From a virus: a stretch of DNA of 20,415 nt. Shown in pieces: positions 14,315 to 16,304 of the stretch; the first letter of the stretch is position 1, and every line of letters begins with the position of its first letter. The notes beneath the pieces are model-generated. The model worked only from the letters and a program-made list of their open reading frames with translations, was not told where the DNA came from and searched no databases. The stretch covers positions 1 to 20,415 of the IMG/VR virus record IMGVR_UViG_3300006749_000193; one strand, written 5' to 3'. The position numbers and the translations under genes are program-made.

Positions 14315-16304
14315 GCCAATTATCTCCTATTTTCGCTTCTAATAGTAAAGGTACATTAAATTCTATTCTAAAGGTTTTATTTATCAAAGTATTTAAAGTT
14401 TTATTTACATTACGAATAATATTCAATACGTCTTCCTCTTCCTGTGGGTGAATATCTATTACTATAGAGTCGTGTACAGTATTTACCACACATGAATTAT
14501 ACTTGTCAAGTGCTTTATCTATTTCTATTAAAACTAATGGCACTACATCAGCAGTAGCAAAAGATTGCACAGGATAGTTTTTTATTTGAGTAAAGTAGGA
14601 CACACTACCATTACTCCTTCTCTCTACATCAGGAAAAGAAAACTGCCTACCTGAAGGTGTCGTAATCATATTAGTTTCTAAAGCTTCTTTAGCCAATCTG
14701 GAGTGCCATGATGCAACTCCTTTGTACTTTTGTGTGAACTGTTCATAATATTTTGCTTCAGCAGACGTTCTCCCAAATCCTGTTGCTCCATAGAGGGGTG
14801 CAAAGGTATGAGCTTTTGCTTCTTGCCTAGAAGTCTTCTGACCTGATTTCGTAATGACCGAAGCAGTGTATGCATGTACATCAAATCCATCTCTTATCTC
14901 CTTTATAGCTGTTTCATCTTGTGATAAATAGGCAGCGGTTCTAAACTCTAACTGTGCAAAGTCAGCTTCCAATATCTTGCCACCTGCCCAACGTGATACA
15001 AATACTTTTTTAACAGGGAACGTACCACCTCTAGGCATGTTCTGCATGTTTGGGTCTGCACCACTAAACCTGCCTGTGGCAGTTCTGTGTTGTAATAATC
15101 TAACATGAAGCCTACCATCTGATTTAACATGAGTACTAATACCCTCAACAAAAGATGATAAATAAGTATCTAAGGCAGACAATCTTTGTAAATCAGTTAA
15201 AAATTGCACTGCATCTGTTAAATTATTTTTCTTAGCTACATTACGTAATATATCTAAGTATCCTTTATTTGTTGTAAACCCATTAGCACTTATCCATTTA
15301 GCATTAGGTGCAGAGAATTTTAATCCTGCTACTATTCTCGTATCATTAAATAAGTAGCCAAGAGTATTACAAGTATTACACCTGTTTGGTTTAGAGTATA
15401 GAGTACCATTTTTTTTTACCTTTCTTATGTATCCTTCCCCCTTACACTCCAAACATTTAACTGCCTGAGTTTTATATACAATATTAGAATATTCTTTTAC
15501 TTTATCTTTGTATTCCGTAATATCCATATAAGGATGGAAGTTGTTTGCCCACATAGTTTTGTCTACAGGTTTCTTGCTATAGATAACCCAAGACATCTGT
15601 TCAGGACTATTTAAATTAATAGGTGTATCTCCCATTAAATTACGCACTTGTTGAGTGAGCCTGTTCTCAATGCCTTTCTTTTCTTTTTCAAACTCTACCC
15701 TAACCTCATCTAGCTTAGAAACATCTACTTTAAAACCCCTTCTATATATTTTAGCCAATGTAACTGCAACTTGATTAGTTAATATAACAGTATCCATGAG
15801 AGATGCATATTCCACACTATTTAACTTTTTGTATATCTCATCAGATAGTTGTTGTGTTGCATGTAAGTCAGCAGATAAATAACTAGAGAGTTCATCAGCA
15901 GGTATCTCATCTACACCTACCCCCTTTTTAAAATATTCCTTTAGTGTATCCTGCTTCTGCGTATCTAACTCATATCTTTCTGCACATGCTTCAAGTGACA
16001 ATGGTTGTTTGTTACCACGTTGTAATACATATTCTCCCAACATAGTATCAAAGACAGAGCCTTCGTATTTAAAGCCACACTCCCATAACCACATTAAATC
16101 GTGAACAATGTTATGTCCTATGAGTATAGTAGCATTATCTATTAAATCTTGTACCCCTGTAAAATCATCACGAAACAAATATTCTTTTCCTGTATCTGTC
16201 AGACAACCTACCATGACAAGTTTGTTTGTAGATTCAAATGGGTCAAGATGCATCTTACCACCACGATGAGTAACGGTATTTTCTACATCTATTGTTAATT
16301 TCAT
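14292..16304 (-). CDS. Family A DNA polymerase with 3'-5' exonuclease and DnaJ-like zinc finger
   Basis: This is the replicative polymerase. Exonuclease residues are D6/E8 (IDVENT), D69 (GHNIVHD) and Y142/D146 (YLSAD). Polymerase motif A is LEADFAQLEFR (D448); motif B is R493, K497, F501, Y505-G506 (RQEAKAHTFAPLYG); motif C is VHDSIVID (H611, D612). Between the domains (residues 284-317) is a Cys pair repeat, CLECKGEGYI...CNTCNTLGYL, with C284, C287, C309, C312, matching the DnaJ central zinc-finger pattern CxxCxGxG. That insertion is the hallmark of HMO-2011-type phages. F501 corresponds to E. coli Pol I F762. At 670 residues no 5'-3' exonuclease domain is present. GGAAGG lies nine bases before ATG 16304, which overlaps the helicase stop (ATGA). 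Confidence 0.95.
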   Translation of the reverse strand: MKLTIDVENTVTHRGGKMHLDPFESTNKLVMVGCLTDTGKEYLFRDDFTGVQDLIDNATILIGHNIVHDLMWLWECGFKYEGSVFDTMLGEYVLQRGNKQPLSLEACAERYELDTQKQDTLKEYFKKGVGVDEIPADELSSYLSADLHATQQLSDEIYKKLNSVEYASLMDTVILTNQVAVTLAKIYRRGFKVDVSKLDEVRVEFEKEKKGIENRLTQQVRNLMGDTPINLNSPEQMSWVIYSKKPVDKTMWANNFHPYMDITEYKDKVKEYSNIVYKTQAVKCLECKGEGYIRKVKKNGTLYSKPNRCNTCNTLGYLFNDTRIVAGLKFSAPNAKWISANGFTTNKGYLDILRNVAKKNNLTDAVQFLTDLQRLSALDTYLSSFVEGISTHVKSDGRLHVRLLQHRTATGRFSGADPNMQNMPRGGTFPVKKVFVSRWAGGKILEADFAQLEFRTAAYLSQDETAIKEIRDGFDVHAYTASVITKSGQKTSRQEAKAHTFAPLYGATGFGRTSAEAKYYEQFTQKYKGVASWHSRLAKEALETNMITTPSGRQFSFPDVERRSNGSVSYFTQIKNYPVQSFATADVVPLVLIEIDKALDKYNSCVVNTVHDSIVIDIHPQEEEDVLNIIRNVNKTLNTLINKTFRIEFNVPLLLEAKIGDNWLDTKDVS

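Follow-up and report, generated by a model that had tools for sequence, protein, structure and literature searches.

Phages of the HMO-2011 type, one of the dominant groups of marine phages, are recognised by a "partial DnaJ central domain" located between the exonuclease and polymerase domains of their DNA polymerases (PMC6918029, PMC8528129, PMC9038755), and the GenBank record of Puniceispirillum phage HMO-2011 (GU557055) carries a DnaJ central-domain annotation. In the literature on this domain in HMO-2011-type phages we found no demonstrated function. Insertions in the thumb of other polymerases have been assigned roles: those of the T7 and human mitochondrial enzymes bind processivity factors, and the lysine-rich insertion 1 of plant organellar polymerases has been modelled against DNA (PMC7699545). 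A literature search turned up no family A phage polymerase whose thumb bears a zinc finger.

We analysed a window of 20,415 nucleotides (positions 1 to 20,415 of IMG/VR virus record IMGVR_UViG_3300006749_000193) that encodes a polymerase with such a domain, hereafter the finger (Table 1). Given that the domain is described in the three papers cited above, the finger is less novel than the preliminary description of this DNA implied. What is new here comprises the conservation counts, the placement at the thumb tip, the likeness to a single DnaJ site, the basic loop, and a neighbouring candidate for a single-stranded DNA-binding protein (SSB).

Table 1 Features of the polymerase, its insertion and the adjacent replication genes in the window
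Feature	Position	Strand	Basis
Candidate single-stranded DNA-binding protein, 311 aa, proposed partner	13321..14256	-	VIA, acidic tail
Family A DNA polymerase, HMO-2011 type, 670 aa, 3'-5' exonuclease + polymerase	14292..16304	-	Pfam, identity, model
Thumb-tip insertion, residues 244-335 (approximate limits)	15300..15575	-	Anchor spacing, model secondary structure
One-zinc finger (predicted), residues 284-317, C284/C287/C309/C312	15354..15455	-	Translation, conservation, DnaJ 1exk profile match
Basic loop between Cys pairs, residues 292-308	15381..15431	-	Conservation, charge
DnaB-like replicative helicase, no acidic tail	16301..17524	-	Pfam DnaB_C E 1e-11
Separate DNA primase, N-terminal Cys pairs	17515..18303	-	PHROG 47 DNA primase E 1e-15

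A Pfam scan of the polymerase matched DNA_pol_A (E 7e-55) and exo1 (E 2e-7), and the catalytic residues D6, E8, D69, Y142, D146, D448, K497, H611, and D612 were invariant in 60/60 sequences. The predicted structure, with a mean pLDDT of 89.1 and values of about 81-91 in the finger region, showed the Pol I fold. Z scores to the Bst, Taq, and Klenow enzymes were 31-33 in VIA, the top match being Bst Pol I (4dqi_A, Z 32.7, rmsd 3.0 over 536 residues). With its exonuclease and polymerase catalytic residues and this fold, the protein is a family A polymerase. It belongs with the HMO-2011 type in the placement of its Cys module, in its nearest relatives, which are HMO-2011-type phages, and in a gene order common to both; the HMO-2011 polymerase itself is 65% identical to it.

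The Cys module opens with CLECKGEG, a full CxxCxGxG motif, and closes with CNTCNTLG, which has the form CxxCxxxG, as had been read from the sequence beforehand. In the minus-strand translation, the codons for C284, C287, C309, and C312 lie at 15455-15453, 15446-15444, 15380-15378, and 15371-15369, respectively, and the range previously given for the four residues is therefore exact. A CxxC-x(10-40)-CxxC arrangement appeared in only 36 of 200,000 shuffles of the polymerase protein. Relatives with the insert were gathered by scanning viral contigs from four starting polymerases and adding isolates, which yielded 272 sequences. Alignment showed the Cys residues to be near-invariant, with all four present in 269 relatives, so that the doubt as to whether they are conserved is removed; the remaining three carry C309D. 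The loop separating the Cys pairs was 21 residues long in 268 relatives of this set. In a nonredundant set of 45 sequences under 80% identity, C284, C287, C312, G289, G300, and G316 were invariant, and C309 was kept in 43, with D in the other two. The sequences with Asp at the third Cys (L049, L050, and L078) read NKDPACNGLGY or NKDPSCNGLGY, and since L049 and L078 clustered in the tree, from which L050 was absent, the substitution probably arose in one event. The second repeat had the full CxxCxGxG form in only 13 of the 45 nonredundant sequences, and the accepted HMO-2011-type members CRP-207 and CRP-345 lack it. Judged by these sequences, the published wording "two full CXXCXGXG repeats" is too strict to exclude membership of the HMO-2011 type.

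Repeats 2 and 3 of DnaJ hold one common zinc. It was at these two repeats that a profile of the insert matched the Cys-rich domain of E. coli DnaJ (1exk, E 6e-5). The Pfam family DnaJ_CXXCXGXG matched residues 279-320 of the polymerase with an E value of 8.8e-4 and 19.9 bits, under the curated cut-off of 32.7, and it matched 57 of 60 relatives, each scanned singly, at E < 0.01 (best E 1.7e-5). The term "DnaJ-like" applied earlier to the module is borne out by both matches, and from the match to the DnaJ site we infer that the four Cys residues bind zinc. The next profile match was the zinc finger of lambda-Q-type phage antitermination proteins (E 0.06-0.09), and tblastn with the finger also retrieved Q antitermination proteins in phages (E 5e-3). 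The lambda-Q zinc finger has been inferred to participate in DNA recognition (PMC9371919).

The resemblance to the DnaJ central domain could be taken to mean that the finger recruits host DnaK or acts as a DnaJ-like co-chaperone in replication, and PMC9038755 suggests such a role, pointing to lambda replication. A type I DnaJ, however, has four CxxCxGxG repeats and two zinc ions, whereas the insert has two repeats only and one of the two zinc sites. Given that a Pfam scan found no J domain in the polymerase and that the second repeat is usually degenerate, a chaperone role is very improbable, and the Pfam name of the finger should not be read as indicating one. The findings suggest a finger that holds DNA or a protein partner, not one with a DnaJ-like chaperone action. 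Paired CxxC motifs would also suit a redox switch for glutaredoxin or thioredoxin, with no zinc site, and some HMO-2011-type phages encode a glutaredoxin (PMC9038755). The insert profile nevertheless matches structural zinc fingers, and in one lineage C309 is replaced by Asp, which could coordinate a metal but cannot serve as a redox residue; we give the redox switch scant credence.

To place the insertion, we compared it with the thumbs of the Klenow and T7 enzymes. Thumb helix NLNSPEQMSWVIY of the window polymerase corresponds to FNLSSTKQLQTILF of Klenow and FNPSSRDHIQKKL of T7. From this helix to the next anchor there are 113 residues in the window polymerase compared with 27 in Klenow and 26 in T7, and approximately 86 residues are therefore inserted in the thumb-tip loop that follows the helix, the equivalent loop of Klenow being at residues 590-605 or thereabouts. 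The model showed the insertion as two short helices and a strand stalk (residues 273-283 and 317-325), with the finger between the strands. The preliminary description had placed the module between the exonuclease and polymerase domains, which holds for the Pfam boundaries only; in the predicted structure, the insert is part of the polymerase thumb. It had also offered the thioredoxin site in the thumb of T7 polymerase, or a linker, as the location. The thumb region is correct, but the segment is not a linker, and a position at the site of the T7 thioredoxin-binding domain was rejected on the basis of anchor spacing. That domain (residues 258-333) ends right before helix FNPSSRDHIQKKL, whereas the window insertion follows the equivalent NLNSPEQMSWVIY, and the two insertions therefore occupy different sites of the same subdomain. 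In the T7-type arrangement the insertion falls between thumb helix H and helix H1, whereas that of the window polymerase follows the H1-equivalent helix. Both hhalign and MAFFT loosely aligned basic stretches of the T7 thioredoxin-binding domain and the window insertion.

Klenow enzyme without thumb-tip residues 590-613 has lower DNA affinity and processivity. In the insert-bearing polymerases, the loop between the Cys pairs had a mean net charge of +5.4 and residues 276-325 one of +6.6, whereas the whole protein averaged -3.3. Positions K295, K297, K298, and R308 were occupied by K or R in 96-100% of the nonredundant relatives (n = 45). Such constancy bears on the possibility that the finger is purely structural, with zinc holding the enlarged thumb tip together and no partner involved. 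Variation in the insert is indeed lowest at its Cys and Gly residues, but the Lys and Arg residues at 295, 297, 298, and 308 come close to Cys in constancy, and scaffolding alone does not call for this; we consider this explanation improbable.

On the basis of the location in the thumb-tip loop, the conserved basic loop, the likeness to DnaJ repeats 2 and 3 and to the lambda-Q finger, and the precedents set by the thumb insertions of other polymerases, we favor, tentatively and with slightly more doubt than belief, the view that the finger is a zinc-stiffened basic extension of the thumb that holds duplex DNA and serves as a built-in processivity clamp; both the DNA contact and the role in processivity are what we infer from these features. 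A one-zinc finger, like zinc site II of DnaJ, would be carried at the thumb tip by a short stalk of strands, and binding of one metal ion by the four Cys residues would stiffen the Lys- and Arg-rich loop. Behind the active site, the loop would then rest on the duplex product and hold the enzyme on DNA, so that the finger would replace an accessory processivity subunit such as thioredoxin. Against such a clamp, an acidic tail of a protein would be an equally plausible ligand of the basic loop, and the finger-less sister polymerases of Stenotrophomonas phage StenR_269 and a Myxococcota MAG presumably manage with a short loop.

The neighboring genes offer a candidate for such a tail. Downstream of the polymerase gene, with those for the primase and helicase upstream, lies the gene for a 311-aa protein that is a homologue of HMO-2011 phage1322_13 and that had no Pfam or PHROG match. 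In VIA, the model of this protein (pLDDT 85.6) was closest to the RB69 gp32 core (2a1k_B, Z 6.8, 171 residues aligned, rmsd 4.0), with further matches to gp32 SSB cores for 2atq_B (Z 6.5) and 8gme_A (Z 6.4); these alignments covered 166-178 residues at Z 6.4-6.8, a range in which chance matches are possible. Rows from rank 5 onward had a Z of 3.4 or less and were mostly OB folds. A PhiC31 integrase-recombination directionality factor fusion chain (9teh_I, Z 6.7) matched the model as well as did gp32, and a Foldseek search of the model against the PDB gave no significant match (best E 0.08). Judged by its model, the protein is a good candidate for a gp32-like SSB with an OB-type fold. Its tail is conserved and acidic, with a mean net charge of -6.5 in the last 20 residues (225 homologues) compared with about -0.2 per 20 aa elsewhere, whereas the helicase tail is neutral (mean charge +0.2, 230 homologues).

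The main rival to the clamp is docking, in which the finger would be a platform within the replisome and its basic loop would bind the acidic COOH-terminal tail of the SSB candidate. Both the gp32-like OB-type model and the charge of the tail favor docking, and there is a precedent in T7, where basic patches on the thioredoxin-binding domain bind the acidic tails of gp4 (PMC12593628) and the SSB gp2.5 (PMC7699545). Acidic tails, however, are general among SSBs, and finger and tail charges did not covary as expected (rho 0.04, p 0.52, n = 218), nor was the trend in the nonredundant set in the expected direction (rho +0.30, p 0.08, n = 35). A gp4-like contact is unlikely given the neutral helicase tail. 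We regard docking as possible but doubtful. It is compatible with the clamp, and a replisome contact point, as proposed previously for the finger, is possible.

A tblastn search of 50,697 phage records with the finger matched no polymerases other than those of the HMO-2011 type, in agreement with the earlier view of the insertion as a marker of these phages. The finger was rejected as a general feature of phage polymerases, being absent from the ICP2-type, MEP402, QDWS535, R8W, NMeng1, RHph_I38, StenR_269, and Ssp-JY38 enzymes and one polymerase of a Myxococcota MAG. When the insert was masked for tree construction, the polymerases with a finger all fell into one group with 99-100% support, apart from the Cys-less relatives, and the finger was therefore, most simply, gained once. 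We count this single gain in favor of the clamp. The polymerase of the Myxococcota MAG contig (L331), which has a short thumb-tip loop, grouped with that of StenR_269. An attractive candidate for the ancestor of the finger is the Cys-less basic stretch FKxGxRAGxxKxK of ICP2- and MEP402-type polymerases, the register of which differs between alignments.

Several finger-less polymerases, including that of Methylophilales phage MEP402 (L085, 992-3103) and those of L087, L094, and L083, are encoded in two ORFs split before motif A. In ICP2, an ORF that weakly matches HNH breaks up the polymerase, and that of MEP402 has an intervening ORF of 77 aa with no Pfam match. Among the HMO-2011-type contigs, the pairs L322/L323 and L327/L328 are contigs identical in name and length that are binned under both a Flavobacteriales and a Neomarinimicrobiota MAG, and the host labels of these MAGs are therefore unreliable.

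Taken as a whole, an HMO-2011-type replisome in which a DnaJ/lambda-Q-type finger at the thumb tip grips the duplex, replaces a processivity subunit, and docks a hitherto unrecognized gp32-like SSB through its acidic tail is rather unlikely. If such a replisome exists, it would be self-contained and built differently from that of T7. The thumb-tip placement, the four near-invariant basic residues, and the likely SSB turn the "partial DnaJ" label by which these phages are recognized into a testable claim about retention of the polymerase on DNA.

Comparison with known systems places the finger among several partial counterparts. Insertion 1 of plant organellar polymerases is likewise a lysine-rich thumb insertion modelled as facing DNA, although no zinc motif is reported for it (PMC7699545), and the two are likened by description only. 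The T7 thioredoxin-binding domain is similarly a basic thumb insertion in a phage family A replicative polymerase, but it lacks such Cys pairs and is inserted before the thumb helix. The lambda-Q-type finger (7ubj, 4mo1) shares one set of Cys pairs, a T-x-x-x-C-x-x-C-x-G-x-G start, and a similar loop length; it belongs to a transcription factor, and its score is weak, as given above. Zinc site II of E. coli DnaJ (1exk) also has two Cys pairs, a CxxCxGxG first repeat, and similar spacing. Unlike DnaJ, the finger has one zinc site rather than two, no J domain, and a longer, strongly basic loop, and it lies within a polymerase. HMO-2011 (GU557055) has the same polymerase family, the same insert, and the same gene order (primase-helicase-polymerase-hypothetical-hypothetical-endonuclease I); its second Cys motif is CPACHGDG rather than the CxxCxxxG of the window polymerase, and the differences are otherwise those of ordinary divergence.
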